Shown here: positions 12,808 through 49,683 of the stretch, one piece after another | Layout of the letters: the number at the start of each line of letters is the position of its first letter | Position numbering within the stretch: the first letter of the stretch is position 1 | Program-made: the position numbers and the translations under genes | Notes under the pieces: model-generated | The model's input: the letters and a program-made list of their open reading frames with translations, nothing else | Told to the model about the DNA's origin: nothing | Databases searched by the model: none | Source of the DNA: Streptosporangiaceae bacterium NEAU-GS5 | Lineage (GTDB): Bacteria > Actinomycetota > Actinomycetes > Streptosporangiales > Streptosporangiaceae | Direction of reading: 5' to 3' | Assembly (NCBI GenBank): GCA_017592665.1 | Contig: JAGFNW010000007.1 | Location: forward strand, 1 to 64,000 | Length of the DNA: 64,000 nucleotides

Positions 12808-12889
12808 GTCCCTACCTTAGGACGGCCGACCGACATCCCGCGCTCGCCCGCGGGAATGATCGACGCTCTGCGGCGTGTTCTGAACTTAC

Positions 12890-13600: not shown

Positions 13601-13601
13601 T

Positions 13602-14300
13602 TCAACCGCTCTGGCTGTTCCGCCGTTCCTGGCGCCTGGTGAGGCGGCGGGCGGCGCGTGCGGCCACGAAGCCGAGCGAGTTGGTGGCCACGTGGAGCAG
13701 AGCGGGCGCGAGCAGTCCGCCGCGCCGGCGGAGCTCGTGGAAGAGCAGGCCGGCGGCGGCCGTCCCGGCCACGGTCCCCACGACCAGGCGTGTGCTTCCC
13801 GTACGGCCACCGGCCCCGGATAGGGCGGGGTTGGCCCGGGCCATGTCGAAGGCGGGCAGGACATGCCATAGTCCGAACATGGCGGCCGAGGTTGCGACAG
13901 CCGTACGAGGGCCTAGGGAGCGGGCCAGGAGCGCGGGGAGCACGCCGCGGAAGGCGACCTCCTCCAGCAGGACCGTGCCGAGCGGCACCTGGACGAGGGC
14001 CTCCTCGGCCAGGCGCACCCGGGAGAGGGACAGCGCGCGCTCGTCGTGGAGCAGCGGCCGCGTGTGGGGCAGCGCGACCCCCCCGGCGTATCCGGCGAGC
14101 ACCGCGGCGGCGAGCGCGCCGCCGATGACCGCGCCCCGCGCGGGCGTGTGGAAGCCGATTTCGGCGCGGTCGCAGTCGCGCGCCAGGTGGAGCAGCGCGG
14201 CGGTGGCCGCGACCGAGGTCAGAGGGGCCAGGCGCGGCGCGACCCGGTTGTTCAGCAGATTGGCGGCCGCCAGCACGCTGACGGCCGCGAACGTCTTCAT
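13602..14300 (-). CDS. CPBP-family intramembrane metalloprotease
   Basis: 232 residues from ATG 14300 (an upstream TTG at 14309 is possible). About six hydrophobic segments are present. The family motifs are present in order: EE-x3-R (Glu113-Glu114 and Arg118 in LLEEVAFRG), the FGLWH histidine near residue 152, and H-x3-N in LLHVATNS near 205. CPBP (Rce1-like) proteases cleave within membranes or act as immunity or maturation factors; the substrate here is unknown. The C-terminus is basic (RRLTRRQERR). Confidence 0.88.
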   Translation of the reverse strand: MKTFAAVSVLAAANLLNNRVAPRLAPLTSVAATAALLHLARDCDRAEIGFHTPARGAVIGGALAAAVLAGYAGGVALPHTRPLLHDERALSLSRVRLAEEALVQVPLGTVLLEEVAFRGVLPALLARSLGPRTAVATSAAMFGLWHVLPAFDMARANPALSGAGGRTGSTRLVVGTVAGTAAAGLLFHELRRRGGLLAPALLHVATNSLGFVAARAARRLTRRQERRNSQSG

Positions 14301-14331
14301 GGACGCCAATGATCCCAGCCAGTGCCCCGCA

Positions 14332-24024: not shown

Positions 24025-24131
24025 GACCGGATATTTCCCGTTAAAGGGTTCGCTATCACTTCGTAGAAACGGTCAGATCGCCACGAATGCGTGGGAATAG
24101 GCATATAGGTGTCTATTCTTCGGGGGCGGGC

Positions 24132-32569: not shown

Positions 32570-35481
32570 CGCTTCAGAAGGCGGTCTACGACGCGGGAGG
32601 CGGCCCGGCCGTCGTCCCACGGGCAGTAGGCCGCCTGGAAGGCCTCATACCGCTGCTTGTACGCGCCCGGGTCGAGGCCGCGCAGGGCGTCGGCCAACTC
32701 GCCGGTCGTGCTGACGATCGGGCCCGGGGCGCACGCCTCGAAGTCCATGTAGAAGCCGCGCACCTGATCGCGGTAACGGGCCAGATCCGGGCAGAGGAAG
32801 ACCATGGGCCGGCCCGTGGACGCGTAGTCGAACATGGCCGACGAGTAGTCCGTCACCAGGACGTCGGCGGCCAGCAGCAGATCGGCCATGTCGGGATAGC
32901 GGGAGACGTCCAGCACGCGCGGCCCAGAATGGGCGGCGATCCGATCGGCCACCAGGTAGTGCGCGCGCACCAGCAGGACGTGGTCCTCGGGCAGCGCGGC
33001 GGCCGCGCGGCCGAGGTCGAACGGCAGGCTGAGCCGGCCCCTGCCCGCGTGCTCGTCGTCCCGCCAGGTCGGGGCGTACAGGACGAGCCTCGCCTCGTCG
33101 GAGACGCCGAGGCGGCGGCGCACCCCGGCCGCGAGCTCCGGGCGGAAGAGCAGGTCGTTGCGCGGATACCCCGATTCCAGCATCTCGCCCCCGTATTCGA
33201 AGGCACGCCGGAAGATGGGCGTCGAGAACGGGTTGGGCGAGACGAACAGGTCCCACATGGTCGAGTAGCGGTCGAGGTCCTCGTAGAGGTCGCGCTGGCC
33301 GTACGGCATGTCCTTGATGTCGGAGCCGAGCCGCTTGAGCGGGGTGCCGTGCCAGGTCTGGACGAAGAACTGCCCGCGACGCTTGGCGTACCAGGCGGGC
33401 TGGGTCCTGCGGTTGACGATCACGTAGCGGCTGGTGGTCAGGGCTTCCTCGTGGGCGCGAGAGCCGTACAGGACCTGGCGGACGCCGCTGGGGGCGGGCA
33501 GCGGCGCGTCGCGTGTGACCCAGATGAGGTCCACGCCACCGCGCCGCGCGAGTTCCTCGGAGATCGCCCGTGGATTGCACGAGTACTGCGCGCCGCCGTA
33601 GCTGTCGAACAGGGCCGCCTCGCGCAGGGGCCCGCGCCGCCGCGCCGTGCCCCGCCTGCGGTTGACGTAGCGGCCGCGCTCGTCCGGTCCCAGAGCGGGC
33701 CGTACGGCGAGGCTGACCGCGTTGCCGGGGCCGATCCGGAAGGACATCTCCTGGAACCCGTTCGTACGGGGCGCCGGCAGATCCGCCGCGAGCGCGGGGG
33801 CCGCGCGGAGCGGCTGCCCGCCCACCTCGACGCGCCATGTGCCGCTCCGCAGGTCGCGGTTGAGCGGCCGGGATTCGGGGCCGGACACCAGCATCGCCCC
33901 GGGCAGGCCGCGAAGCGTGCCGTCGGGCGCCCATTCCAGGCGGTCGACGCCGCCGACCAGATCCGGGCATCCGGCGCAGCCCTCTACGGCCGTGACCATG
34001 AGCCCGTCGTCGCAGCTGAGCTCCGGATGGAGGCAGAGTGGGCCCGGAATGGGCGGCAGCAGCCGGTCGCCGCCCTTCGACGAGGCCTTGAACAGGCCTT
34101 CGCGGACGACCCCGCGTGCGACGACCTCACCGTGGAGCCGCCAGGTCCCGGCGGCGTCGAGGCAGGTGGGATCGAAAGAGGCGACGAAGCCCGAGTTGTC
34201 GTGGTTGACCGCGGACTGCCGGGAGTCGGCCGTCACGTCCGGCCGGGCCACACGCGTGATGTCCAGGTTCACACGCCGATCGCCGCAGGCCAGCCAGAGG
34301 GCGAGGTCGCTGCGGGAGCTGTCGAGCCACCGGATGTAGGCGTGGCCGGAGATCTCGATCCGGCCGCCCGTGTAGCGCACGTCGTCGACCCGGCCCCGGA
34401 GGGTCATCTCACGCTCGGCGTCGTAGAGCTCCTGGGGGATGCGCTGGTCGCCCCGGAATGGATAGTCGGAGTACCAGCGGGGCTTGAACAGGCCGCGCCG
34501 TACGGCCGCGCGGTCCGGCAGCCGTGTCCTGACGAAGTCGACGACCTCGCGCAGTTCGGCGGTCATTCCGGTGCGGATCAGGTGGAGCTGCAGGCGGTCC
34601 ATCCCGGACAGCCGTTCCACGGCGGCCGGGTCCAGCCAGCCCAGGACCGACCGGCCGAGCTCGACGAACGGATCCAGATCGTGGGCCGACGCAACCGCCT
34701 CGAGCAGGAAGGCGATGTCGGTCTCCGCGATCACCCGGTCGTGCCGGCGGCGCAGGCGGCGGGCGTGCTGGTCGAGGAAGTCGGCCACCACGCGCATGGT
34801 GGCGAACCGGTCCCGCAGGTTGCCGAGGTCGGTCCGCTGTGCGGTGATCGAACCGGGCCGCTGCCGCCACAGGTAGACGGCGTCGCCCAGCACGTCGGTC
34901 GAACGCGAGAGCACGTGGGCCGGGATCGTCACGGGACAGTCCTCGTAGCGTCCCGGCGGGAACACGAACCCGTGCTGGTCCCAGAAGGAACGCCGGAAGA
35001 CCTTGTTCCAGGCGGTCCGGTCGCGCATCAGCTCGCGGTGCTCACGGATGTGCGTGGTCTGCAAAGTCTCCTTGAAGGCCGGCCGGTGGATGCGCGAGGC
35101 CCGCGTGCCGCTGTCGGTGACCCGGAGCACCCCGCCACAGGCGAGGTCGCTGCCGGTCTCGTCGAGGGTTCCCACGAGCTTCTCGTACGCCTCGGGGAGG
35201 ACGACGTCGTCGCTGTCGGCGAAGGCGAGGTAATCGCCGCGGGCGTGCCGCGCGCCGGTGTTGCGCGCCGGGCCGAGGCCCTGGTTGTCCTGGGTGATCA
35301 CACGGAAACGGGGGTCGGATTCGGCGGCCGCGTGGGCGATGGCCGCGCTGCCGTCGCGCGATCCGTCGTCCACGAGGATGATCTCGATGTCGGTGAGCGT
35401 CTGCGTTCTCAACGAGTCAAGGCACTCCGCGATGTACGCCTCGACATTGAAGAACGGCACGACCACGCTGAGCTTCGCCAT
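32566..35481 (-). CDS. Second GT2-TagF fusion (teichoic-acid-type polymerase)
   Basis: About 971 residues from ATG 35481, where GT2 homology begins (MAKLSVVVPFFNVEAYIAEC); the open frame upstream was rejected. GT-A domain: IILVDDGSRDGS, LAFADSDDVV. The middle (about 390-620) looks beta-rich, with IEISGHAYI and WRVEVGGQPL, perhaps a carbohydrate-recognition or TarF-like insert. The C-terminal TagF domain has QTWHGTPLKRLG, LYAPTWRDD and VTDYSSAMFDYAS. It is a paralogue of the protein at 24132 but much diverged. The role is inferred as polymerising a glycosyl-polyol phosphate backbone. Confidence 0.9.
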   Translation of the reverse strand: MAKLSVVVPFFNVEAYIAECLDSLRTQTLTDIEIILVDDGSRDGSAAIAHAAAESDPRFRVITQDNQGLGPARNTGARHARGDYLAFADSDDVVLPEAYEKLVGTLDETGSDLACGGVLRVTDSGTRASRIHRPAFKETLQTTHIREHRELMRDRTAWNKVFRRSFWDQHGFVFPPGRYEDCPVTIPAHVLSRSTDVLGDAVYLWRQRPGSITAQRTDLGNLRDRFATMRVVADFLDQHARRLRRRHDRVIAETDIAFLLEAVASAHDLDPFVELGRSVLGWLDPAAVERLSGMDRLQLHLIRTGMTAELREVVDFVRTRLPDRAAVRRGLFKPRWYSDYPFRGDQRIPQELYDAEREMTLRGRVDDVRYTGGRIEISGHAYIRWLDSSRSDLALWLACGDRRVNLDITRVARPDVTADSRQSAVNHDNSGFVASFDPTCLDAAGTWRLHGEVVARGVVREGLFKASSKGGDRLLPPIPGPLCLHPELSCDDGLMVTAVEGCAGCPDLVGGVDRLEWAPDGTLRGLPGAMLVSGPESRPLNRDLRSGTWRVEVGGQPLRAAPALAADLPAPRTNGFQEMSFRIGPGNAVSLAVRPALGPDERGRYVNRRRGTARRRGPLREAALFDSYGGAQYSCNPRAISEELARRGGVDLIWVTRDAPLPAPSGVRQVLYGSRAHEEALTTSRYVIVNRRTQPAWYAKRRGQFFVQTWHGTPLKRLGSDIKDMPYGQRDLYEDLDRYSTMWDLFVSPNPFSTPIFRRAFEYGGEMLESGYPRNDLLFRPELAAGVRRRLGVSDEARLVLYAPTWRDDEHAGRGRLSLPFDLGRAAAALPEDHVLLVRAHYLVADRIAAHSGPRVLDVSRYPDMADLLLAADVLVTDYSSAMFDYASTGRPMVFLCPDLARYRDQVRGFYMDFEACAPGPIVSTTGELADALRGLDPGAYKQRYEAFQAAYCPWDDGRAASRVVDRLLKR

Positions 35482-35575
35482 GCTGACAGCATCCTGAGAG
35501 CGGGGATGACGGCCCTCGCACACATCGATTGCCTTGCCTGCGCCTGACCCAATCTTTGGATGTACGCTGTGCGTC

Positions 35576-36097
35576 GTGTCGGACACGAAGAGTGATCTGC
35601 GCCCGCTGGACGACGCGGATCTCGGCGTCGTCCTCGGGTGGCGCAACCATCCGCGGGTCCGGGAGAGCAGCTTCACCACCCACGCGATCGGCTGGGCCGA
35701 GCACCGGGCGTGGTGGGCCGCGGTCCGGCTTGATCCGGCCCGTGAGGTGCTGGTCTATCGGCACGACGGCGTCGCTTCGGGCGTCGTCGCCTTCGAGCAC
35801 GTCCGGCCCGGCCACGCCGAGTGGGGGTTCTACCTCGACGTCGAGGGCGTCGAAGAGCGGGGGCAGACGCTCGCGGCCTGGCTCGGCATCGAGCGGGCCG
35901 CGATCGCGCACGCGTTCGACGCACGTGGGGCGGCCGTCCTCGAGGGCCACGTGCTCGCCGACAACCACGCGGTGCTGAGCCTGCACCGCAGATTCGGCTT
36001 CACCGAGGTCGAGCGCTACACCCGGGCCGTGGACGGGGCGCCGCGCCAGGTGGTCAGGGTCCGTCTCGCCAAGCCTTCGACGAAGGAGTCTGCATGA
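35576..36097 (+). CDS. pseH: PseH-like N-acetyltransferase (GNAT)
   Basis: 173 residues from GTG 35576. GNAT fold: LRPLDDADLGVVLGWRNHPRVRESSF, then EWGFYLD and VLADNHAVLSLHRRFGFTEVERYTR. The WRN and F-T/S pattern matches the PseH/RimJ-like group that acetylates UDP-4-amino-4,6-dideoxy-AltNAc. No Shine-Dalgarno sequence is visible, so the mRNA may be leaderless. Its stop overlaps the pseI start in ATGA, which strongly supports the pathway assignment. Confidence 0.88.
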   Translation: MSDTKSDLRPLDDADLGVVLGWRNHPRVRESSFTTHAIGWAEHRAWWAAVRLDPAREVLVYRHDGVASGVVAFEHVRPGHAEWGFYLDVEGVEERGQTLAAWLGIERAAIAHAFDARGAAVLEGHVLADNHAVLSLHRRFGFTEVERYTRAVDGAPRQVVRVRLAKPSTKESA

Positions 36098-37137
36098 TCA
36101 GCATCGCCGGGCGGCCGGTCGGCCCCGACCACCCGCCCTTCGTGATCGCCGAGATGTCGGGCAACCACAACGGCGACCTCGGCCGGGCCCTGGCCATCGT
36201 CGACGCCGTGGCCGCGTCCGGGGCGCACGCGCTCAAGCTGCAGACCTATCGCGCCGACACGATCACCGTCGACGTCGACCTGCCGGCCTTCCGGATCAGC
36301 CCCGAGCACGAGCTGTGGGGCGGGGAGAATCTCTACCGGCTCTACGAGCGCGCCCACACCCCCTGGGAGTGGCATCGGCCGATCTTCGAGCGGGCCGCCA
36401 AGCACAGGCTCGCGGTCTTCTCCGCGCCCTTCGACCCGACCGCCGTCGATCTGCTCGAGGGCCTCGACTCCCCGGCGTACAAGATCGCCTCATCGGAGAT
36501 CGTCGACTTGCCGCTGATCCGGCTCGTGGCGCGCACCGGCAAGCCGCTGATCATCTCGACGGGCATGGCCGACGCGGCGGAGATCCACGCGGCGGTGGCC
36601 GCGGCCCGCGGCGCGGGCTGCGCCGAGTTGGTGGTGCTGGCCTGCACGGCCTCCTATCCGGCCTCGCCGCGCGACAGTCACCTGCGGGCGCTGCCGGTGC
36701 TGTCGGCCGTGTGCCAGGCGCCGGTCGGGGTGTCCGATCACACGCCGGGCATCGGCGCGGCGCTGGCGGCGGTCGCGCTGGGCGCGTGCGTGATCGAAAA
36801 ACACGTCACCCTGTCGCGGGCCGAGGGCGGCGTCGACGCGGCGTTCTCGCTCGAGCCGCACGAGCTGGCGGCGCTCGTCGAGGAGAGCGAGCGGGCATGG
36901 CTGTCGCTCGGCACGGCCGCGCTCGGGCCGCGTCCGTCGGAGCGAGAGGGCCTGCGCTTCCGGCGCTCGCTCTACGTCGTCGCCGACGTGAAGGCGGGCG
37001 AGCCGGTCACGCCACACAACGTCCGCTCGATCCGCCCGGCCGGCGGCCTGGCCCCGGCGCTGCTCGACACCGTCCAGGGGCGCCGCTTCGTCCGCGACGT
37101 GGCGATGGGCACGCCGCTCAGCTGGGATCTGATCTAG
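36094..37137 (+). CDS. pseI: Pseudaminic acid synthase (NeuB family)
   Basis: 347 residues from ATG 36094. It condenses phosphoenolpyruvate with 2,4-diacetamido-2,4,6-trideoxy-L-altrose. NeuB barrel: FVIAEMSGNHNGDLGRAL, LKLQTYRADTIT, PAYKIASSEIVDLPLI, ISTGMAD, CTASYPA, VGVSDHTPGIG and EKHVTLSR. The C-terminal SAF antifreeze-like domain (about 290-347) reads RSLYVVADVKAGEPVTPHNVRSIRP. The wording EMSGNHNGD and LYRLYERAHTPWEWH is typical of PseI rather than NeuB/LegI. It is coupled to pseH. Confidence 0.94.
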   Translation: MISIAGRPVGPDHPPFVIAEMSGNHNGDLGRALAIVDAVAASGAHALKLQTYRADTITVDVDLPAFRISPEHELWGGENLYRLYERAHTPWEWHRPIFERAAKHRLAVFSAPFDPTAVDLLEGLDSPAYKIASSEIVDLPLIRLVARTGKPLIISTGMADAAEIHAAVAAARGAGCAELVVLACTASYPASPRDSHLRALPVLSAVCQAPVGVSDHTPGIGAALAAVALGACVIEKHVTLSRAEGGVDAAFSLEPHELAALVEESERAWLSLGTAALGPRPSEREGLRFRRSLYVVADVKAGEPVTPHNVRSIRPAGGLAPALLDTVQGRRFVRDVAMGTPLSWDLI

Positions 37138-38729: not shown

Positions 38730-39599
38730 CTAAACGCCGAGCAGGGCGTCGGCCACGCGCACGCGGCCCAGACCGTCGATGGGGCGCTCGCCCGGCGGCT
38801 CGCGGCGCTCGATGGCGACCGGCAGCGTCCGCGCCAGGTCCTCGCCTCGACCGAGGGCGAGGGCCAGCCCGCGCCCGACCAGCGCGCGGTAGCCGGTCAG
38901 CTGGTTGTCGGCCACCCAGGTGAGCGCGGCCGGCGCCCCCAGATAGAGCAGCTCCCAGATGGCCGACCCGGCGGCGGTGACCACCAGGTCGGCCTCTGTC
39001 ATGAGCCGGGGCAGCCGGTCGGTCGGCCCGATCGCCTCCACTCGTTCGTACGAGCGAGTGGCCCCGACGACGGTCGCGGTCACGGGCAGGCCGGAGAGGA
39101 CCTCCGCGACGAGCGGGGCGAGGCCTGCGGCGTCGGTGCCGCCGAAGAAGCACAGCACATGCGGCAGCTCGCGCTGGGGAGGCGCCCAGCGCAGCCGCAG
39201 GACGTTGTCCCGGAGCAGCACGTAACGCTCGCCTGCCAGCCAGCGGGAGTCGAGGGGTTGGGCGCCGAGGTTCTGGTCGAGGTAGAGGTCGGCCTCCTGG
39301 CCCCGGGCGTCGCCACCGTCGACGATCGCGAGGACGCGCCGCCCGGCCGCCCGGTGGCGAGCGCCCGTGCCGGGCGGGAGCGTGTAGGAGTCGAGGACGA
39401 CCGCATCCGCCGCGTCCGACCGCCCGCGTGCCAGCCCGCGCCGCGTGAGCTGCGCCTCGGCCCACGCGAGGCCGCCGAGGTCGGCGTCGAACACCACCTC
39501 GGCCCCGCGCGCGGCCAGCTCCTCGGCCAGCGCCACGCAGCGCATGAGGTGGCCCACCCCGGCCGATGGCCCGGCGTCGCACCGGAACGCCACCCTCAT
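38730..39599 (-). CDS. pseG: UDP-2,4-diacetamido-2,4,6-trideoxy-altrose hydrolase
   Basis: 289 residues from ATG 39599, which overlaps the pseF stop as ATGA. GT-B-like fold with the catalytic His17 in GVGHLMRCVALAEEL, then VVLDSYTLPP, LCFFGGTDAAG and ADLVVTAAGSAIWELLYLGAPAA. PseG removes UDP to give the free hexose used by PseI. Its start was set by homology; the open frame upstream reads through pseF sequence. Confidence 0.92.
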   Translation of the reverse strand: MRVAFRCDAGPSAGVGHLMRCVALAEELAARGAEVVFDADLGGLAWAEAQLTRRGLARGRSDAADAVVLDSYTLPPGTGARHRAAGRRVLAIVDGGDARGQEADLYLDQNLGAQPLDSRWLAGERYVLLRDNVLRLRWAPPQRELPHVLCFFGGTDAAGLAPLVAEVLSGLPVTATVVGATRSYERVEAIGPTDRLPRLMTEADLVVTAAGSAIWELLYLGAPAALTWVADNQLTGYRALVGRGLALALGRGEDLARTLPVAIERREPPGERPIDGLGRVRVADALLGV

Positions 39600-40339
39600 G
39601 CCTGCTGCAGCTCCTTCTGCCGGACGTGCGCGTTGAGCGCGCTCACCTCGGGATGCGCGCGCAGCCACGACACCAGCGTGCCCACGGGGACGGCACGGTC
39701 ACCGAACTCGCCGGCCACGCGCTCGATCACCGCCCAGTCGTCCGGAGTGTCCAGGGTGACCCGGAGGTCGGAGGCGTCGGGCGCGTAGGTCAGGCCGAGC
39801 ACCCGGAAATCCTCGGGGTGACAGTACGCATATGAGGTGACGTGCGCCCGGTGATATCCAGTGGCGAGCGCATCGATCCTGCGAAGCGCGTCGACCGAGA
39901 CGACCTCTGCGTCGCCCGCGCCACGCGGCAGCGTGTGCGGCAGGCCGAGACTGACGTAGTCGACGTTGCCCTCGGCGTTGACGGCCGCGAACACGGCCGC
40001 CGCCTGCCGCAGGACCGCCGGATCGAGCAGCGGGCAGTCGGCCGTGAGCCGCATCACCGCCCCCGTCGCGCCGCCGAGCGCCTCGACGAAGCGGGTGAGC
40101 ACGTCGTCGACCGGCCCCCGATGACAGCGCACCCCCAGCCGGGCGCACGCGGACGCGACCGCGTCGTCCTCCGTCTCCGTAGTCGTGGCGACGATCAGGT
40201 CGTCGAGCGCGCCCGACTGCTCGGCGGCGCGTACGACCCAGCCGAGGACCGACCTGCCGCGCAGGTCGCGAAGGACCTTGCCCGGCAGCCGGGTCGACCC
40301 CATGCGTGCTTGAACCACCCCGACGATATCCACAGGCAC
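39596..40339 (-). CDS. pseF: CMP-pseudaminic acid cytidylyltransferase
   Basis: 247 residues from a GTG start. The cytidylyltransferase N-terminus VGVVQARMGSTRLPGKVLRDLRGRSVLGW is followed by LRLTADCPLLDP and DYVSLGLPHTLPRGAGDAEVVS. This is the SpsF-like group often used in place of NeuA in pse and spore-coat clusters. It activates pseudaminate with CTP. Its overlap with pseG and divergence from pseB fix the pathway. Confidence 0.88.
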   Translation of the reverse strand: MPVDIVGVVQARMGSTRLPGKVLRDLRGRSVLGWVVRAAEQSGALDDLIVATTTETEDDAVASACARLGVRCHRGPVDDVLTRFVEALGGATGAVMRLTADCPLLDPAVLRQAAAVFAAVNAEGNVDYVSLGLPHTLPRGAGDAEVVSVDALRRIDALATGYHRAHVTSYAYCHPEDFRVLGLTYAPDASDLRVTLDTPDDWAVIERVAGEFGDRAVPVGTLVSWLRAHPEVSALNAHVRQKELQQA

Positions 40340-40408: not shown

Positions 40409-41389
40409 ATGAGTGTGCTGACCGGCTCGTCGATTCTGATCACCGGGGGGACCGGCTCGTTCGGCAAGGCGTTCCTGCGGCACGCGCTCGACCATCTTGA
40501 CCCGCGCCGCGTCGTCGTCTTCTCCCGCGACGAGCTGAAGCAGTACGAGGCGCGCCAGAGCTTCACCGACGACCGGATCCGCTGGTTCATCGGCGACGTG
40601 CGCGACCGCGACCGGCTGACGCGCGCCATGCACGGCGTCGACTACGTGGTCCATGCGGCCGCGCTCAAGCAGGTCGACACGGCCGAATACAACCCGTTCG
40701 AATATGTGCGCACCAACGTCACCGGCTCGCAGCACGTGGTGGAGGCGGCGATCGACTGTGGTGTGCGCAAGGTCGTCGCGCTGTCCACCGACAAGGCGTC
40801 CAGCCCCATCAATCTCTATGGGGCGACCAAGCTCTGCGCCGACAAGCTGTTCATCTCGGCCAACCACTACGCGGCGGCTTATAAGACCCGGTTCGCCGTG
40901 GTCCGCTACGGCAACGTGATGGGCAGCCGCGGCTCGGTGGTGCCCTTCTTCCTGAAGCTGGCGCGCGAGGGGCGCAGCCTGCCGATCACCGACAAGCGGA
41001 TGACCCGCTTCTGGATCACGCTCGACCAGGCCGTCCGGTTCGTGGTCGGCTCCTTCGATCTGATGCAGGGCGGCGAGCTTTATGTGCCGCGCATCCCCAG
41101 CATGCTGGTCACCGATCTCGCCGAGGCCCTCGCCCCGGGCGCGTCCATCTACGAGATCGGCATCCGCCCCGGCGAGAAGGTGCACGAAGAGATGATCGCC
41201 CCGGACGACGGCCGAAGGACGTTGCGACTGCCCGATCGCTATGTGGTTCAGCCGACCATCGCCGACTGGGGATATGTGCCGCCGCAGCGGGGCGAGTCGC
41301 TTCCGGAGGGCTTCGCCTACCGGTCCGACTCCAATGATCAGTGGCTGACCGTCGAGCAGCTGCGCGAGATGACCACGGTGACCGTCTGA
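40409..41389 (+). CDS. pseB: UDP-GlcNAc 4,6-dehydratase (inverting)
   Basis: 326 residues from ATG 40409, with a G-rich ribosome site. Rossmann motif GGTGSFG (13-19). The STDKASSPINLYGATK segment holds the Asp128-Lys129 pair and Tyr137-Lys141 of the inverting (5-epimerising) dehydratase. It performs the first pathway step. A clean promoter could not be placed in the 69-bp divergent gap to pseF. Its stop overlaps the pseC start (TGATG). Confidence 0.95.
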   Translation: MSVLTGSSILITGGTGSFGKAFLRHALDHLDPRRVVVFSRDELKQYEARQSFTDDRIRWFIGDVRDRDRLTRAMHGVDYVVHAAALKQVDTAEYNPFEYVRTNVTGSQHVVEAAIDCGVRKVVALSTDKASSPINLYGATKLCADKLFISANHYAAAYKTRFAVVRYGNVMGSRGSVVPFFLKLAREGRSLPITDKRMTRFWITLDQAVRFVVGSFDLMQGGELYVPRIPSMLVTDLAEALAPGASIYEIGIRPGEKVHEEMIAPDDGRRTLRLPDRYVVQPTIADWGYVPPQRGESLPEGFAYRSDSNDQWLTVEQLREMTTVTV

Positions 41390-42501
41390 TGCTGCCCTAC
41401 GGACGGCAGTCCATCACCGAGGCCGACGTCGCGGCGGTCGTGGAGGCGCTGCGCGGCGACTGGCTGACGACCGGCCCCCTCGTGCCCGCGTTCGAAGCGG
41501 AGCTGGCCCGCTGGACCGGCGGCGTGCCGTGCGTCAGCGTCACCTCGGGCACGGCCGCGCTCCACGTCGCCTATGCCGCGGCCGAAGTGCGGCCGGGCGA
41601 CGAGGTCATCGTGGCGCCCATGACGTTCGTGGCGACCGCGGCCACCGCCGCTGTGCTGGGAGCACGGGTCGTCTTCGCCGACGTCGAGCCCGACACGGCC
41701 ATCCTGTCGCCCGATGCGGCCCGGGCCGTGCTGACGCCCCGCACCAAGGCCATCGCCGCCGTCGACTACGCCGGCCATCCGGCCGACTACGACGCGCTCC
41801 GGGAGCTCGGCGTCCTGGTGATCGCCGACGCGGCCCACTCCATCGGCGCCACCTACAAGGGCGAGCCGGTCGGGTCGCTGGCCGACCTCACCACGTTCTC
41901 GTTCTTCCCCACCAAGACCGTCACCACGGCCGAGGGCGGGGCCGTGGCCGCGCGGGATCCCGAGCTGTACGACCGCGCGGCCCGCTTCAGGAACCACGGG
42001 CTGGTCCGCGACCCGGCGCGGCAACGCGATCCCGAGCACGGCGGCTGGCACCAGGAAGTGCACGACTTCGGTCTCAACTATCGGCTGCCCGACGTGCTGT
42101 GCGCGCTCGGCCTGAGCCAGTTGCGCCGCCTGGCCGACTTCCGCGCCCGGCGCGCCGAGCTGGTGGCACGCTACGACCGCCTGCTCGCCGATCTGCCGGG
42201 GCTGGCCGTGCCCGCCCGCCGCGACTACGTCGAGCCGTCCTGGCACCTCTATCCGGTGCGGATCTTCGGCGGTCGGCGCCGCGAGGTCTACGACCGGATG
42301 CGCGCGGCCGGCATCGGGGTCCAGGTCAACTACATCCCGGCCTACTGGCATCCGGTCTTCGCCGACCTCGGTTATCGGCGCGGCATGTGCCCCAATGCCG
42401 AGGCCTTCTATGCCGAGCAGCTGTCGCTTCCGCTCTTCCCCGACCTGTCGTCCGCCGACCAAGACCGGGTGGTCGAGACGCTGCACGAGATCCTGGGCTG
42501 A
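41389..42501 (+). CDS. pseC: UDP-4-amino-4,6-dideoxy-N-acetyl-beta-L-altrosamine transaminase
   Basis: 370 residues. DegT/DnrJ/EryC1 fold: TSGTAALHVAYAAAEVRPGDEVI, PLP-binding Asp in IADAAHSIG, and Schiff-base Lys176 in FSFFPTKTVTTAEGG. It transfers an amino group from glutamate to the 4-keto sugar made by PseB. It is coupled to pseB, and the next gene begins four bases after its stop. Confidence 0.94.
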   Translation: MLPYGRQSITEADVAAVVEALRGDWLTTGPLVPAFEAELARWTGGVPCVSVTSGTAALHVAYAAAEVRPGDEVIVAPMTFVATAATAAVLGARVVFADVEPDTAILSPDAARAVLTPRTKAIAAVDYAGHPADYDALRELGVLVIADAAHSIGATYKGEPVGSLADLTTFSFFPTKTVTTAEGGAVAARDPELYDRAARFRNHGLVRDPARQRDPEHGGWHQEVHDFGLNYRLPDVLCALGLSQLRRLADFRARRAELVARYDRLLADLPGLAVPARRDYVEPSWHLYPVRIFGGRRREVYDRMRAAGIGVQVNYIPAYWHPVFADLGYRRGMCPNAEAFYAEQLSLPLFPDLSSADQDRVVETLHEILG

Positions 42502-42505
42502 CCTC

Positions 42506-43378
42506 ATGCACCACGCCAACCATTTCTACGGCCACGCGGCGATCATGGCTCGCTACTGCGGCTACAAGGTCGATCCGCCGCGCATCCGGGGCTTCCTGCA
42601 GCACGGGTGGAACATCATCGACGGCTTCGCCCCCGGCATGCCCTATGTGCCGGGGGTGCCGCGGTTCCTGTGGTCCTCCGGCCCCGTCCGGCGCGGCCTG
42701 CCCAACGGGCACCGCAATGGCTACGCCATCGGCGCGCCGTGGCTCTATCTGCTCGATCAGAAGCCCGATCCGGGCGGCCCGCGGCGCGGCACGATCTGGT
42801 ATCCGTTCCACGGCTGGGAGCAGCAGGAGGTCCTCGGCGACCACAGCGCGCTGATCGCCGAGATCCGCGAGACCGAGCCGGAAGATGTCACTGTCTGCCT
42901 CTATTGGGCCGAATACGAGAATCCCGCGGTCCGGCGGCTCTATGAGCGCGTGGGCTTCCGGGTCATCTGCCACGGCTACCGCGGCCACTGGTGGAATCGC
43001 ACCGACCCCGATTTTCTCTATCGGCAGCTGGCCGAGCTGCGCCGCCACCGCCGGGTCGCCTCCAACCGGCTGAGCAGCGCCATCTTCTACGGCATCGCCG
43101 CCGGATGCGAGCCGGCCGTCTACGGCGACCCCATGGTGCTCACCGACGAACACCCGGTCTTCGGCGGCGTGGCCCGCATCCGCCGCCTGTGGCCCGAGCT
43201 GCACGGCCACCAGATCGACTTGGCCACGGCCCGGCAGATCGCCGACCACGAGCTGGGCGCGGCATTCCTGGCCCACCCCGCCGAGATCCGCGAGCTCTTC
43301 CACTGGCGTCCGCACCCGCCCACCACCACGTGGGCCGACCGCCCTCCCTTGGAGATGGCATGTCCGACATCCACGTGA
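42506..43378 (+). CDS. Unassigned protein in the pse operon, possible glycosyltransferase
   Basis: 290 residues from ATG 42506. I do not recognise the family. It is rich in aromatic residues and opens with YGHAAIMARYCGYKVDPPRI, then a HGWNIIDGFAPG segment, IWYPFHGWEQQE, VTVCLYWAEYENPAVRRLYERVGFRVICHG, and SNRLSSAIFYGIAAGCEPAVYGDP. The last stretch resembles the C-terminal donor-site loop of GT-B enzymes, where an Asn-Ser-Ala pattern precedes a Gly-x-Pro. Its position right after pseC makes it a candidate pseudaminyltransferase. Other possibilities are a sugar-modifying enzyme or a polymer export factor. Confidence 0.7.
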   Translation: MHHANHFYGHAAIMARYCGYKVDPPRIRGFLQHGWNIIDGFAPGMPYVPGVPRFLWSSGPVRRGLPNGHRNGYAIGAPWLYLLDQKPDPGGPRRGTIWYPFHGWEQQEVLGDHSALIAEIRETEPEDVTVCLYWAEYENPAVRRLYERVGFRVICHGYRGHWWNRTDPDFLYRQLAELRRHRRVASNRLSSAIFYGIAAGCEPAVYGDPMVLTDEHPVFGGVARIRRLWPELHGHQIDLATARQIADHELGAAFLAHPAEIRELFHWRPHPPTTTWADRPPLEMACPTST

Positions 43379-45744
43379 GCACCCACCCCCCCACCCCCGA
43401 ATCCCCCAAAGCCCCGACCGCCCTGGAAGCCCCGGAAGCGCCCGGAGCCCCGGAAGCCCCCAGACCCCCGGAAGCCGCCAGAGCTCTGGAAGCCGCCACG
43501 ACAACCCCCCAAGCCCCAGAAGCCACCGCGGCAGCCGCCCAAGCCCCAGAGCACAGCCGGATCCCGGAGCACCTCGGGACCCCAGAGCACCCCCGGACAC
43601 CAGAGCCCCGCCACCCACCAGGCGGCATCATGCCTCCCCCAGCAGCGCACTCCCCCATCCCCCACCAACCAACCCCCGCCACAGCACCCCACCACCCGGA
43701 CGATGCCACACCCCGCCAACCAACCCCCGGCACCGCGGCTCACCACCCGGACGATGCCACACCCCCCCAACCAACCCCCGGCACCGCGGCTCACCGACCG
43801 GCGCACCCCGGCATCCCCCACCCAGCGCACCCCGCCGTGCCACACCAGCCGGCGCACCCGGGCACCGCCACATCGCCGCGGACGACACACGACCCGAGAG
43901 CGACACACGACCCGAGAGCGACACACGACCCGAGAGCGACACACGACCCGAGAGCGACACACGACCCGAGGGCCCATGAGTCACTGGACGACTCGGGGGC
44001 GAGGTGGGGCTTGGGAGCTCTTGGTGGCGTAGCGAGGCCTCGTGGGTCCGCGTCCGACGTTCATGTGATCGGTGGCGAGATGGCCGAGTGGACCGACCTG
44101 CCGTCCGGCGACTGCGGCGAGTTGGCCGCGCTTGTAGCGGCTCCCGGCGACCGCGTGCTGCTCGCCGGAGTCAACCGCCTCGACGTCGCCGACCGCCTCC
44201 TCGCCGTAGGTGCGCACGTCACGTGCCTGCTCCGCGGGCTCCTCGACGCGGAGACGGTCCGCGGGGCCTTCCCCGGCGACGACCGGCTGACCGTGCTCGC
44301 GGGTGCGATCGACTGGCTGCCCGACGAAGCCGCCTTCGACGTTATCGTGGCGCCGGACGGCCCGGGCCGCCTCCTCAGCCCCGACAGCGGCCTGCTCGAC
44401 TGGCCCGCCGTGCTCGCCCGTCTACGGCGCGCGCTGGCCACCGGCGGGCGGCTCGTCCTCGGCGTGGAAAATCCGCTCGGCGTCCACCGCCTGGCCGATA
44501 CGCGCGTCGACGGCTGGCTGGCTCCCGCCGAGTTCGCCACCACCTGCCCTGCCAACCTCGCCGCCGTCCGCACCGCACTCGCCGACCACCACCTGACCGC
44601 CATCCGCGCCTACGGCGGATTCCCGTCATTCGACAACCCTCAGGTCCTGGCCGACGCCGACAGGCTCTCCTCCCACGCGACCGACGCCGTCATCTGCGGG
44701 CCTTTGTCCCGCTGCAGCCCGCCCGACGGTCCTGCGCTGCTCGATTCCGTACGGCTCTCGCTCAAAGCGTGGCGGCACGGCCAGGGAGCGGCACTCGCAG
44801 CGGGCTGGTTCGTGGTCGCCTGCGACCGCGACGGCCTGAGCCCCGACCTTCCCGACGCGATCTGCCGCGAAAGCCGTGATGGTGCGCACGCCACCTACGA
44901 GCTGCGCATCGCCGACGGCCGATGGCACCGCGTGCTGCTGTCCGGCGAGGCCACGCTCAGTGGCTGGGATCCCAAGCGGTTCACCGGCACGCCACCGGCC
45001 ACGCCGTCCCTCGAAGACCTGCTGGTAAGCGCATGCGTGCGGCAGGATCGGGCGGAGATCCGGCGCCTCCTCCGGGAGTACGCGGCCTGGGGCAATCCGA
45101 CCGCCCTCGACAACACGCTCCCCGACCCCGAATCCGGCGGCGGATTCACCCCCGCCGATCCGACATGGGCGCGACCCGCTGATCAGAGCATCGCGCATGC
45201 CCTGGCCCGCTTCGCCGTACGGCTCATCGAGTCGGGCGCGGCGCATCCATGGCCGACCACACTCACGGCCGACCAGCTCACGGTCCTGCTGGGCCACCTC
45301 GCCGGGGTCACGGTCACACCCGTCAAGACGCCGGCGACACCTGCGACCCGGAGCCGGGGCATGGGCCTGGCCGAGGCGCTGACCGAGATCGCCCGGCTCC
45401 GGACCGCCGTGTCCACCGCATACGGGCACGTCACCTGGCTGGAAGAGATTCTGGCCAGCCGCGAGCGGACCATCAAGCAGTTGCGCCGCAAAGTCCGGCG
45501 GCGCACCAACGAACTGCGACGGCTGCGCGGTTCACTCGCCGTCCGTTTCTCGCGGGCGCCGCGCAGACTCCTCGACCGTTCGAGCACCCGCGTCTCCCTG
45601 CCCATCGGCCCGCAACACGAGGTCCGTGACGACGAGGAGACCTCGCTGCGCAAACGGATCGCCGACCTCGAAACCGAGCGGCGCGCTCTCACCCGGGCCG
45701 CCCGACACTTCGCCCAGGAGGCCACGCATGACGCAACGCCTTGA
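43360..45744 (+). CDS. Methyltransferase-like protein with repetitive N-terminus and C-terminal coiled coil
   Basis: 794 residues if started at ATG 43360 (GGAG seven bases upstream, 19-bp overlap with the previous gene). Residues 1 to about 215 are Pro/Ala/His-rich, with a repeated 17-residue block and five THDPRA units. A SAM-methyltransferase-like Rossmann region follows (GDRVLLAGVNRLDVADRLL; FDVIVAPDGPGRLL; LATGGRLVLGVENPLG), then a long unassigned part, and a basic coiled coil (about 680-790, ASRERTIKQLRRKVRRRTNEL). The acceptor is unknown. A downstream start near GTG 44064 or ATG 44080 would remove the repeats. Confidence 0.75.
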   Translation: MSDIHVSTHPPTPESPKAPTALEAPEAPGAPEAPRPPEAARALEAATTTPQAPEATAAAAQAPEHSRIPEHLGTPEHPRTPEPRHPPGGIMPPPAAHSPIPHQPTPATAPHHPDDATPRQPTPGTAAHHPDDATPPQPTPGTAAHRPAHPGIPHPAHPAVPHQPAHPGTATSPRTTHDPRATHDPRATHDPRATHDPRATHDPRAHESLDDSGARWGLGALGGVARPRGSASDVHVIGGEMAEWTDLPSGDCGELAALVAAPGDRVLLAGVNRLDVADRLLAVGAHVTCLLRGLLDAETVRGAFPGDDRLTVLAGAIDWLPDEAAFDVIVAPDGPGRLLSPDSGLLDWPAVLARLRRALATGGRLVLGVENPLGVHRLADTRVDGWLAPAEFATTCPANLAAVRTALADHHLTAIRAYGGFPSFDNPQVLADADRLSSHATDAVICGPLSRCSPPDGPALLDSVRLSLKAWRHGQGAALAAGWFVVACDRDGLSPDLPDAICRESRDGAHATYELRIADGRWHRVLLSGEATLSGWDPKRFTGTPPATPSLEDLLVSACVRQDRAEIRRLLREYAAWGNPTALDNTLPDPESGGGFTPADPTWARPADQSIAHALARFAVRLIESGAAHPWPTTLTADQLTVLLGHLAGVTVTPVKTPATPATRSRGMGLAEALTEIARLRTAVSTAYGHVTWLEEILASRERTIKQLRRKVRRRTNELRRLRGSLAVRFSRAPRRLLDRSSTRVSLPIGPQHEVRDDEETSLRKRIADLETERRALTRAARHFAQEATHDATP
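43884..43973. repeat. Five 18-bp in-frame tandem repeats (THDPRA)
   Basis: GACACACGACCCGAGAGC is repeated five times without interruption; the last copy has one change. Each codes for six residues, so copy-number change keeps the frame. A 51-bp in-frame repeat with HHPDDATP and QPTPGTAA blocks lies just before it, at about 43693-43797. Confidence 0.92.
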
Positions 45745-45970
45745 AGACGTCTTCAAGACCGCCCTTCGACTGACCGACGAGGTCGACGTTTCCAGCCTCG
45801 AATACCGCGGCGTCCCCCAGTGGGATTCGCTCGGCCACATGACGCTCATCGCGGCCATCGAAGACGAATACGGCATCACCATCGACACCGACGACGTGAT
45901 CGACCTCAATTCGTACGCGAAGGCCGTCGCCCTGCTGGAGAAGAACGGTGTCCCCGTCACCACCACCTGA
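45728..45970 (+). CDS. Acyl carrier protein
   Basis: 80 residues. The phosphopantetheine attachment Ser lies in PQWDSLGHMTLIAAIEDEYGI, the standard D-S-L motif with a following acidic helix. It is a discrete ACP, distinct from a fatty-acid synthase AcpP by its WDSLGHM variant, which is common in polysaccharide and signalling clusters. It overlaps both neighbours (45728-45744 and 45948-45970) and therefore is co-translated with the methyltransferase-like protein and the AMP-ligase. It needs a phosphopantetheinyl transferase from elsewhere. Confidence 0.93.
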   Translation: MTQRLEDVFKTALRLTDEVDVSSLEYRGVPQWDSLGHMTLIAAIEDEYGITIDTDDVIDLNSYAKAVALLEKNGVPVTTT

Positions 45971-47282
45971 CCCGGATCTGCCGCGCGGCCACGTGATCGA
46001 CGTGGACGGGCGGCGGCATCAGGCCGGGGCCCTGGTGCGCGACCTCGACGGTCCGCCAGGCGTGCTGTTCTGCGCCATGCGGACCGACCTGACCTCGGTC
46101 GGCCTCTACCTCTCGGCGTTGGCCGCACGGCGACCGGTCGCGCTGCTCGATCCTGGGCTCTCCACCGACGCCCTCCCCGAACTGGCCGATCGCTACCGGC
46201 CGGCCCTGATCGCCGGCTTCGATATCGGCGACCTGCCCGGATACCTCGAGCAGGCGCCCGGCGTGCACCGCTCGGCCGGCGACCCCGCACCCGTCCACCC
46301 CGACCTCGCGCTCCTGCTGCCCACCTCCGGCTCGACCGGCAGCCCCAAACTCGTACGGCTATCGCGAGCCGCCGTGCTCGCCAACGCCCACTCGATCGCC
46401 GCCGCCCTCGCCATCGGCCCCGACGACGTCGCGCCGACCAGTCTGCCCCTGCACTACAGCTACGGCCTGTCGGTGCTCAACAGCCATCTGCACGCCGGCG
46501 CGACGGTCGCGCTCATCCCGCACAGCCTGGTCGAACGTCCCTTCTGGACGGCCATGACCGAGCGCGGCTGCACCACGCTCGCCGCCGTGCCGTACCAATA
46601 TGAGATGCTCGCGCGGCTGCGGGCCGACCCGAGGCGCTGCCCGACGCTGACCACGCTCACCCAGGCGGGCGGCCGGCTCCGCACCGACCTGATCCAGCAT
46701 TTCAGCTCGCTCGTCGATCGCTTCTTCGTCATGTACGGGCAGACCGAGGCGACGGCGCGGATCGCGATCCTGCCGGCCGGCAGACTGGCCGACAAGCTCG
46801 GCTCGGCCGGACGCGCCATCCCCGGCGGCGCGCTGAGCACGACCGACGACGGAGAGATCGTCTACGACGGCCCCAACGTGATGATGGGCTACGCCGAGTC
46901 GGCCGACGACCTGGCATGCGACGACGTCATGCGTGGCCGGCTGCCGACCGGCGACCTCGGCCACCTCGACGGCGAGGGCTTCCTCTACGTCACCGGCCGG
47001 ATGAAGCGGATCGCCAAGGTGTTCGGGGTCCGGGTGAATCTCGACGACGTGGAGCGGCTGCTTCGCGGGAGCGGGCCGGTGGCCGCCGTCAGCGGCGATG
47101 ACCGGCTCGTGGTCTACGCCGAGGGCGCCGACGCGGCCGCCTGCGCCACCCTGACGGCTCGGCTGTCGTCGCTGCTCAACATGCATTGGAGCGGCTTCGA
47201 CGTACGGGCGCTCGACCGGCTCCCGGTGCTCGCCACCGGCAAGATCGACTATCGCACTCTGGAGCGCCTTTGTTCACGCTGA
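45948..47282 (+). CDS. AMP-dependent acyl ligase
   Basis: 444 residues from a GTG start. ANL-superfamily motifs are all present: LLPTSGSTGSPKLVRLS (P-loop), MYGQTEATARIAI, TGDLGHLDGEGFLYVTGRMKRIAKVFGVRVN, and the C-terminal catalytic Lys in LPVLATGKIDYRTL. The N-terminal domain is shorter than in typical acyl-CoA synthetases. It overlaps the ACP gene, so it probably activates a carboxylic acid and loads it on that ACP. The acid is unknown. Confidence 0.9.
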   Translation: MSPSPPPDPDLPRGHVIDVDGRRHQAGALVRDLDGPPGVLFCAMRTDLTSVGLYLSALAARRPVALLDPGLSTDALPELADRYRPALIAGFDIGDLPGYLEQAPGVHRSAGDPAPVHPDLALLLPTSGSTGSPKLVRLSRAAVLANAHSIAAALAIGPDDVAPTSLPLHYSYGLSVLNSHLHAGATVALIPHSLVERPFWTAMTERGCTTLAAVPYQYEMLARLRADPRRCPTLTTLTQAGGRLRTDLIQHFSSLVDRFFVMYGQTEATARIAILPAGRLADKLGSAGRAIPGGALSTTDDGEIVYDGPNVMMGYAESADDLACDDVMRGRLPTGDLGHLDGEGFLYVTGRMKRIAKVFGVRVNLDDVERLLRGSGPVAAVSGDDRLVVYAEGADAAACATLTARLSSLLNMHWSGFDVRALDRLPVLATGKIDYRTLERLCSR

Positions 47283-48301
47283 CGCGGTCCGAGCGCGAGG
47301 AGCGCCTCTTGCCGGAGCTCAACCGGCTGACGGTTCATCACCGGGAGGCCTGCGCGCCCTATCGGCGGATTCTGGACGCGCTCGGCGTCCGGTCGCCGTT
47401 CGACTCGATCGCCCGACTGCCCTGGCTGCCGGTCCGGCTGTTCAAGACGCATGATCTGCGCAGCATTACCGACGACGCTGTGTTTCGCGTGCTGACCTCC
47501 AGCGGGACCACCGGGCGGCCCAGCCGGATCCACCTCGACCGCGAGGCCGCCGCCACGCAGACGCGGACGCTGGCCGCGACCTTCCGGTCCGTGATCGGTG
47601 ACCGTCGGCTGCCCATGCTGATCGCCGACTCCCCGTCGGTCGTACGCGATCCCACGCTGAGCGCCCGCGGCGCCGGAGTGCTGGGGATGATGAACTTCGG
47701 GCGCGACCACACGTTCGCGCTCGACGCGGCAGGGCGGCCCGACCCCGTCACGGTCGAGCGTTTCCTGAGCCGCTACGGCCACCGGCCGTTCCTCGTGTTC
47801 GGTTTCACGTTCATGGTGTGGCTCTATCTGTACGAGACGGCCGCGGCGCGCGGGTGGGATCTGGGCAACGGGGTGCTCATTCATTCCGGCGGCTGGAAGA
47901 AGCTGGCCGACCAGGCCATCGACAACGCCGAGTTCCGCCGCCGCTTCGCGGCCGCCACGGGGCTCACCCGGATTCACAACTTCTACGGCATGGTCGAGCA
48001 GATCGGCACGATCTTCCTGGAGGGGCCGGACGGCGAGGGGCTCTACTGCCCCGACATCGCCGACATCGTCGTACGCGACCCCTCGACGTGGCGCGAGACA
48101 CCGGTCGGCGTGCCCGGCCTGATCGAGGTGGTCAGCACTCTGCCGGTGTCCTATCCGGGGCATGTGCTGCTGACCGAAGACCTCGGCGTCATACACGGCG
48201 TCGACGACGGGGCCTGGCCGGGCAAGCGCTTCTCCATCCTTGGCCGGCTGCCCAGGGCAGAGGCCCGCGGCTGCAGCGACACCTTCCACGAGGCCGCCTG
48301 A
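47270..48301 (+). CDS. LuxE-like acyl-protein synthetase
   Basis: 343 residues from TTG 47270, with GGAG five bases upstream. It overlaps the ligase gene by 13 bp. LuxE/PaaK features: LTSSGTTGRPSRIHLDREA (AMP loop), VFGFTFMVWLYLYETA, HSGGWKKLADQAI, RIHNFYGMVEQIGTIF, and a C-terminal Cys335 in ARGCSDT. In Photobacterium LuxE, a Cys near the C-terminus accepts the acyl group before passing it to LuxC. The presence of that Cys and of a LuxC homologue next door implies a working fatty-acid-reductase-type pair. Confidence 0.9.
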   Translation: MFTLTRSEREERLLPELNRLTVHHREACAPYRRILDALGVRSPFDSIARLPWLPVRLFKTHDLRSITDDAVFRVLTSSGTTGRPSRIHLDREAAATQTRTLAATFRSVIGDRRLPMLIADSPSVVRDPTLSARGAGVLGMMNFGRDHTFALDAAGRPDPVTVERFLSRYGHRPFLVFGFTFMVWLYLYETAAARGWDLGNGVLIHSGGWKKLADQAIDNAEFRRRFAAATGLTRIHNFYGMVEQIGTIFLEGPDGEGLYCPDIADIVVRDPSTWRETPVGVPGLIEVVSTLPVSYPGHVLLTEDLGVIHGVDDGAWPGKRFSILGRLPRAEARGCSDTFHEAA

Positions 48302-49683
48302 TGATCACCTACGCCCTCACGCCGGAGTCGGCGGCGCAGCTGTGCGCCGACATCGCTCGCGTGCCGCCCGACGGCCCGCTGGCCGTGGGTGACCCGCGCA
48401 TCATGGACTACCTCGCCGCCGTGTCGCGACGGCTGCTCGATCCAGCGCTCGTACGTCGCCACCCCGAGTTGGCGCCCCTCGGTTTCTTCCTGCGCCCGGC
48501 CGAAACGAGGCAGATTCTGCGCGGCCTGGAAACCCCCGGCGCCGTACGCGTCCCGCAAGGACTGGTCTTCCACATTCCGCCGGCCAACGTGGACACGGTA
48601 TTCGTCTACTCGTGGGCCCTGTCGGCGCTGACCGGCAATCGCAACATCGTCCGTCTGTCCCCGCGGTCAGGCCCGGCAGCGACCGCCGCCATCGAGGTTC
48701 TCGCCGACGCACTCGTCGACGCCCATCCGGCTGTCGCCCAGACCCAGCGGGTCGTGTCCTACGGCCGCTCCGACGAGATCACCGCAGCCCTGTCGGCCGC
48801 CTGCGACCTGCGCGTCATCTGGGGCGGCGACGAGGCCGTACGCCAGATCCGCCGCCACCCGCTCACCCCCCACGCCCGCGACCTGACCTTCCCCGACCGG
48901 TCGTCGTTCACCGTGATCTCCACGTCGGTCTGGCACAACGCCTCCGATGCCGTACGCGATCGAGTAGCCCGAGACTTCGCCAACGACGCCTACTGGTTCG
49001 ATCAGGCCGCCTGCTCCTCCCCTCGGACCGTCTTCTGGCTCACCCCACCCGAACCCGCCGACCCCACGACGTCCGCCCCAGGCATGGGGGCAGCCACCAC
49101 AGACACCACCACAGCCACCGCAGACACCGCAGCCGCCACAGGCATGGGAGCAGCCGCCGCAGACACCGCCGCAGCCGCAGCCGCAGCCGCAGCCGTCAAG
49201 GATGACTTCACCCGTCGGCTGGCCGCCGCTGTGACCAGCGGCGACTGGACCGTCGATCCCGCAATGGCCGTTGAGCAACGCGTCTCCACGTACGGTCTGG
49301 CCGCAGCCGCCCTCGCCGACAACCTGCAGTTCAGCGGCACAGCAGTGGCCAGCTACGACCTTCCCGCAGACCTGCCTCCCGCCGCCGCGCTCCCCCGCCG
49401 CTGGCTCGGCCTCGGCGTATTCGCGCACTGCGTCCTCGCGTCCCTGGACGACCTGGTTCCAGTCGTGACACGCAAGGACCAGACGATGACCCACTTCGGC
49501 CTCACCGAGCCCCAATTGCGCGGCTTCGCCGAGGCCGTCGCGGGACGCGGCGTCGACCGGATCGTCCCCATCGGCTCTGCTCTCGCCTTTGCCGCCACCT
49601 GGGACGGTATCCACCTCCCCAGCGCCTTCTCCCGTCTGGTCACCATCCAGGCGGGCGCGAAAACTGTCGGTGGCGGTGTCTAG
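48301..49683 (+). CDS. LuxC-like acyl-protein (acyl-CoA) reductase with low-complexity insert
   Basis: 460 residues from ATG 48301, coupled to luxE by TGATG. Aldehyde-dehydrogenase-like fold: GLVFHIPPANVDTVFVYSWALSALTGNRNIVRLSPRSG, and the catalytic Cys238 in FDQAACSSPRTVFW. LuxC reduces an enzyme-bound acyl thioester to aldehyde with NADPH. An insert of about 50 Ala/Thr/Gly residues (about 251-299) directly follows the catalytic segment and looks like a repeat expansion. It is the last gene of the long operon from pseB. Confidence 0.9.
   Translation: MITYALTPESAAQLCADIARVPPDGPLAVGDPRIMDYLAAVSRRLLDPALVRRHPELAPLGFFLRPAETRQILRGLETPGAVRVPQGLVFHIPPANVDTVFVYSWALSALTGNRNIVRLSPRSGPAATAAIEVLADALVDAHPAVAQTQRVVSYGRSDEITAALSAACDLRVIWGGDEAVRQIRRHPLTPHARDLTFPDRSSFTVISTSVWHNASDAVRDRVARDFANDAYWFDQAACSSPRTVFWLTPPEPADPTTSAPGMGAATTDTTTATADTAAATGMGAAAADTAAAAAAAAAVKDDFTRRLAAAVTSGDWTVDPAMAVEQRVSTYGLAAAALADNLQFSGTAVASYDLPADLPPAAALPRRWLGLGVFAHCVLASLDDLVPVVTRKDQTMTHFGLTEPQLRGFAEAVAGRGVDRIVPIGSALAFAATWDGIHLPSAFSRLVTIQAGAKTVGGGV
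49060..49197. repeat. In-frame low-complexity expansion in the luxC-like gene
   Basis: This stretch is built of GCAGCC, ACCGCAGAC and GGCATGGG(A/G)GCAGCC blocks coding Ala, Thr, Asp and Gly-Met-Gly-Ala. The frame is kept. Compared with the expected LuxC layout it is extra sequence between conserved parts. Confidence 0.75.

Follow-up and report, generated by a model that had tools for sequence, protein, structure and literature searches.

The window analysed here, a stretch of 64,000 nucleotides from Streptosporangiaceae bacterium NEAU-GS5, carries a set of genes for the pseudaminic acid (Pse) pathway. On the plus strand, pseH (N-acetyltransferase, start codon uncertain; 35534 to 36097; TIGR03585, 82.6 bits against a cut-off of 93) and pseI (pseudaminic acid synthase; 36094 to 37137; TIGR03586, 445 bits, over the cut-off of 340) are followed by pseB (inverting UDP-GlcNAc 4,6-dehydratase; 40409 to 41389; TIGR03589, 490 bits, over its cut-off) and the aminotransferase gene pseC (41389 to 42501; TIGR03588, 414 bits against 423.5). 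Two minus-strand genes lie between them. One is pseG, for a UDP-sugar hydrolase (38730 to 39668), whose best NCBIfam match is TIGR03590 at 117.6 bits (cut-off 153.6). The other, at 39596 to 40339, encodes a CMP-sugar transferase (cytidylyltransferase) assigned the PseF role; its best NCBIfam match is KdsB-type, PseF scores 30.6 bits, and by eye it is SpsF-type. A previous sequence-only reading of this DNA had stated that every pathway step except the final transfer is accounted for. This stands for PseB and PseI, which exceed curated cut-offs, but PseC, PseG and PseH fall below theirs and NCBIfam does not place the cytidylyltransferase as a typical PseF, so the statement needs softening.

Directly downstream of pseC is the gene considered here as a candidate pseudaminyltransferase, an open reading frame at 42506 to 43378 on the plus strand that begins with ATG and encodes a protein of 290 amino acids (P0001) with a predicted GT-B fold. 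The pseC stop codon occupies 42499 to 42501, leaving a gap of 4 nucleotides before this ATG, and the 3' end of the gene is overlapped by the next open reading frame. An in-frame upstream extension to 42395 was rejected, since relatives begin with the same methionine at the equivalent of 42506. The antisense frame is also open, but relatives match the plus-strand frame. In the window's family, 48 genomes out of 297 encode proteins of this type, 55-68% identical to P0001; across 84,980 prokaryote genomes the count is at least 235 loci. P0001 is therefore the product of a real gene and not of a chance reading frame. It has no match in phages or viral contigs, and phage cargo was rejected as an origin.

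The overlapping gene, termed the downstream partner, spans 43360 to 45744 on the plus strand. It starts either at ATG 43360, behind a GGAG, or at GTG 43375, with the ATG judged more likely by eye. Its product has proline-rich repeats, a weak methyltransferase-like domain and a coiled coil, and matches no curated family above cut-off. Several tandem repeats (window positions 43394 to 43970) code for its N-terminal ~200 residues, and one of these arrays consists of 4.9 perfect copies of an 18-base unit. This N-terminal extension is missing in most relatives.

The other recognised glycan transferases of the window are two fusions of a GT2 domain to a TagF-like CDP-glycerol glycerophosphotransferase (PF00535 and PF04464), which is a wall-polymer enzyme (32566 to 35679, minus strand; 24087 to 26900, plus strand), a GT4 glycosyltransferase (PF00534; 26872 to 27909, plus strand) and a Stealth protein of the sugar-phosphate transferase type (PF11380 and PF17101-17103; 30980 to 32569, plus strand). 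Two sulfotransferases and one CDP-alcohol phosphatidyltransferase are also encoded around the pse genes. Taken together, the genes around the pse set suggest a locus for a glycopolymer of the wall or capsule. A cassette for an acyl carrier protein (ACP), an AMP-ligase, LuxE and LuxC (45626 to 49683, plus strand) adjoins the Pse genes and may provide the sugar with an acyl or aldehyde group of an unusual kind. Nonomuraea, Micromonospora and Salinispora likewise have ACP, ligase and LuxE genes at Pse loci (L031, L036, L037, L057, L062, L063, L072, L078, L079, L084 and L100), where they are oriented opposite to the P0001-type gene.

P0001 matches nothing above chance in Pfam or NCBIfam, whether searched as a single protein or with the whole alignment, nor in PHROGs when searched singly, and sequence searches of the PDB return no relative. 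The sequence-only reading had found no domain that it could name, and these searches bear it out. Models for known transferases of related sugars were compared with the family. None of 11 diverse members matches PF05159 (Capsule_synth, the type of KpsC, KpsS and KpsS1), and the family has no sequence match to PF07388 (polysialyltransferases, GT38; hhalign probability 0.2%) or to PF01973, the model of Maf flagellin Pse transferases. Maf1 is a candidate Pse transferase.

Several other identities were considered and rejected. A GNAT acetyltransferase is hinted at by a weak FR47 match (0.015) around NPAVRRLYERVGF, but PF08445 scores 15.7 bits against a cut-off of 22.1, only one of the 11 members matches it and the modelled fold is GT-B. 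P0001 has no sequence relation to PseG (hhalign probability ~0) and none that is detectable to TagF/TarL (PF04464), which argues against a duplicate derived from either. Among open-licence papers, none was found on the P0001 family or on Pse transfer in actinomycete walls.

A structure was predicted with AlphaFold2 from 37 aligned sequences taken from the window and the fetched loci (pLDDT 82.8, pTM 0.84). The model has two Rossmann-like halves separated by an interdomain cleft and is GT-B over its whole length. Foldseek finds six PDB matches at E < 0.001, all of them GT-B, with low TM-scores of 0.3-0.4; thus no solved structure is close, and fold class alone is supported. VIA-align matches GT-B enzymes at Z 10.9 to 8.8 over residues 1-269. 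The matches listed include TagF/TarL (Z 10.6-9.7), with TagF H444N entries among them, a capsule polymerase with bound CMP (8a0c, Z 9.6), NeuC and plant UGTs. KpsC, WbbB and PmST1 do not appear among the 50 matches listed, which decides neither way on a common fold. The comparison supports the GT-B fold class for the predicted structure, function excepted. The sequence-only reading had named a fold unrelated to glycosyltransferases as the finding to look for against the candidate, and the model, being GT-B, leaves the candidate standing.

The highest VIA-align matches, at Z 10.9-9.3, are not transferases but UDP-GlcNAc 2-epimerases. Together with the NeuC match, and with the relation of the PseG fold to GT-B, this raises the alternative that P0001 is a GT-B-fold nucleotide-sugar epimerase or hydrolase, similar to NeuC or PseG, that alters a Pse precursor or CMP-Pse. 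Epimerases lie near the GT-B core, however, and rank high for many GT-B folds. The locus has a separate pseG gene to which P0001 is unrelated by profile, and the known CMP-Pse pathway needs no extra hydrolase step. We regard an epimerase or hydrolase as very unlikely.

The motifs recognised in P0001 are YG (residues 8-9), QHG (32-34), PxH (100-102), E136 and a putative donor-helix motif, RRVASNR (182-188). Y8, G9, H33, G34, P100, H102, G150, G157 and G251 are invariant in all 121 aligned members, and position 136 is E or D in every one. Residues 178-210 are among the most conserved parts of the family; it is this C-terminal stretch that had been noticed from the sequence as resembling a GT-B donor site. 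P0001 has no DXD motif. Nor does its C-terminal half have the HP motif of bacterial sialyltransferases (GT38/52/80): at what we take to be the place where HP would be expected, P0001 and its close family have YWxE.

The distribution of the family ties it to Pse. Genome samples contained one genome per species, and the statistics ignore shared ancestry. In the 297 genomes of the window's family, a P0001-type protein and a PseI over the curated cut-off occur in the identical 48 genomes (Fisher P ~1e-56, shared ancestry ignored). No P0001-type protein is found in the 97 genomes of the same family with only a weaker, NeuB-like synthase match. The two genes are on one contig and 2.9-16 kb apart in 44 of the 48 genomes; the other four pairs are on separate contigs of fragmented assemblies. 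All of 25 further genomes, reached through genome loci, also have a PseI over cut-off. Two of these carry cluster-type genes (L033 and L039), and in the other 23 the P0001-type gene stands apart from pse genes within the stretch fetched, with PseI over cut-off elsewhere in every one of the 23 genomes.

A class-wide sample of 394 genomes, searched with a widened profile, yields 14 carriers plus one chance match of 18 bits. PseI is over cut-off in 12 of the 14 (P 4.5e-16, shared ancestry ignored), and in the remaining two, G506 and G570, a synthase of the NeuB family is encoded at a distance of ~3 and 14 kb. Eight of the 20 PseI-positive genomes in this sample have no detectable member of the P0001 family, so it is not the sole Pse transferase and others exist. 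In one genome with PseI and no family member (G672), an open reading frame near pseI (L152:9397-10059, minus strand) looks by eye like a bacterial sialyltransferase of GT29 type, and is a possible alternative Pse transferase. Any enzyme dedicated to a Pse-containing polymer would show the same co-occurrence.

Gene order was surveyed in 81 loci from other actinomycetes, over ~10 kb around the P0001-type gene. At least three pse genes are found within ~10 kb in 56 of these loci and none in the other 25. Of the 55 loci that have a pseC gene in the same orientation, 54 have it immediately upstream. A partner with a GGEM motif is directly downstream in 77 of the 81, including loci remote from pse genes. 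The sequence-only reading had described the gene as fixed between pseC and a methyltransferase. Its position is as described where pse genes are local, but the gene is tied more closely to its downstream neighbour, and the pair occurs with no pse gene within ~10 kb in 25 of 81 loci. As for the label of methyltransferase, the matches of that neighbour to such enzymes are weak at best. In Actinoplanes and Hamadaea (L034, L066 and L111, ~10000-15000), the gene and its partner adjoin a convergent GT4/GT2 pair and form a separate module, apart from the pse genes.

So constant a neighbour, present even where pse genes are not local, could mean that P0001 is a non-catalytic or accessory subunit and that the partner is the real transferase, or that both form one enzyme. 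The partner's coiled coil and its lack of a curated family fit this idea. So does L130 (genome G441), where a second, diverged gene-partner pair (10778-12025 and 9238-10947, both minus strand) sits beside the first and the second copy has VQPW in place of QHGW and thus lacks H33. Against it, family members in L128, L129, L148, Aureibacter and Azospirillum have no adjoining partner yet keep H33, H102 and the acidic residue 136, and such matches as the partner has are weak ones to methyltransferases. An accessory role is highly improbable.

Distant relatives with 15-38% identity are encoded in clusters for Pse or other nonulosonates in Actinomycetota, Pseudomonadota and Bacteroidota. The clearest case is RS22405 of Aureibacter tunicatorum (Bacteroidota), which is linked to the P0001 family by profile comparison (probability 97.9%, E 4e-13) and is encoded two genes beyond pseI, within an operon annotated as pseB-pseC-pseF-pseI. 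Azospirillum brasilense RS32295 is linked in the same way (probability 97.1%), and two Azospirillum plasmids encode NeuB-family synthases in the same cluster as the relative. The Pse clusters L129 and L148 include amidotransferase-like genes, and L128 encodes PseB, PseC and a NeuB-like synthase. RS32295, RS34885 (also from Azospirillum) and RS22405, each annotated as 'hypothetical protein', belong to the same family by profile comparison or alignment and share with P0001 a setting in nonulosonate gene clusters; they differ in being 15-22% identical to it, and their donor may be different.

The known families of nonulosonate transferase that were looked for in the genome are either missing or encoded at a different locus. 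The genome has no gene matching PF05159 (KpsC/KpsS/KpsS1 type) or PF01973 (Maf type). Its only recognised polysialyltransferase (PF07388) is on another contig, C56, ~1 kb from a NeuA-NeuB fusion. At this second nonulosonate locus (L154:3114-7575), a GT2 and the PF07388 protein are encoded alongside a protein of 703 residues that can be read as a fusion of NeuA, a phosphatase and NeuB. The Pse locus therefore lacks a recognised nonulosonate transferase, and P0001 fits the gap.

Pse might instead be transferred by one of the cluster's GT2 or GT4 enzymes, with P0001 acting as a GT-B glycosyltransferase of the same polymer for another sugar, for example the one to which Pse is attached or one that is joined to Pse. 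GT2, GT4 and TagF-like domains are indeed encoded nearby, and in the module of Actinoplanes and Hamadaea both the gene and its partner are grouped with GT4 and GT2 genes, at a distance from pse genes. Yet the distant relatives, in three phyla and in differing polymer clusters, have only nonulosonate synthesis genes in common with it, and we know of no GT2 or GT4 enzyme with demonstrated use of a CMP-nonulosonate. On balance, a role with another sugar seems unlikely.

We think it likely that P0001 is a metal-independent GT-B transferase that moves Pse from CMP-Pse to a cell-envelope glycopolymer, and that it represents a new sequence family. The earlier proposal of a new pseudaminyltransferase family is thus supported by the GT-B model, the co-occurrence with PseI and the relatives in nonulosonate clusters of three phyla. 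A broader generalisation is reasonably probable: P0001 would found a glycosyltransferase family that no curated model covers, that extends across three phyla or more and that is marked by the signature YG - HG - PxH - D/E. Nonulosonic acids would be the sugars transferred by its members, with Pse used in the close branch and probably legionaminate or related sugars in the distant ones. To our knowledge, no characterised nonulosonate transferase family has this signature.

A mechanism can be proposed for such a protein. P0001 would be a compact, metal-independent GT-B enzyme that works in the cytoplasm, moving Pse from CMP-Pse onto a growing cell-envelope glycopolymer. CMP-Pse may bind the C-terminal half in such a way that its phosphate lies where the helix following strand 183-186 begins (S186-N187-R188). 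Either H33, which belongs to the QHG motif of the N-terminal half, or the acidic side chain at position 136 could serve as the base acting on the acceptor; H33 is read in this way because of GT-B precedents such as H444 of TagF. H102 of the PxH motif might assist the donor or the leaving group. A glycopolymer produced by the neighbouring TagF-like, GT2, GT4 and Stealth enzymes is the probable acceptor, and the donor of distant relatives may be another nonulosonate, for example legionaminate.

Of the steps in Pse biology, transfer is the one about which least is known, and in databases genes of this kind carry the label hypothetical. A family that serves as a marker of Pse could be used to predict which genomes attach this sugar to cell-envelope polymers, and could provide a cloned enzyme with which to synthesise Pse glycoconjugates. 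It would also open the wall polymers of Micromonospora, Actinoplanes, Nonomuraea and their relatives to direct testing.

Among known systems, TagF/TarL CDP-polyol polymerases (PF04464) resemble P0001 in their GT-B fold and use a CDP-linked donor for wall polymers; that donor is CDP-glycerol or CDP-ribitol, and sequence links the two in no detectable way. Bacterial polysialyltransferases (PF07388) are also of GT-B type and use a CMP-nonulosonate, the kind of donor proposed for P0001. The P0001 family lies outside PF05159, PF07388 and PF01973. Verified Pse transferases are few: KpsS1 (GT118; PMC12887879) and GtfS of Tannerella (PMC6388019, PMC6120980). KpsS1 of Acinetobacter baumannii is described in PMC12887879, citing Walklett et al. 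2024, as a retaining Pse5Ac7Ac transferase of GT118. Its reaction, from CMP-Pse to a cell-surface polysaccharide, is the one proposed for P0001, but it is a KpsC/KpsS homologue with 30% identity to E. coli KpsS, whereas the P0001 family does not match PF05159. GtfS is the Pse5Am7Gra transferase of Tannerella forsythia, and its deletion loses Pse (PMC6388019, PMC6120980). Like the candidate, it is of GT-B type, and its gene shares a surface-glycan cluster with pse genes. It differs, by its description, in having 445 residues and reported HP and D/E-D/E-G motifs, whereas P0001 has 290 residues and no HP at the equivalent place. P0001 therefore probably represents a new sequence family for a known reaction.
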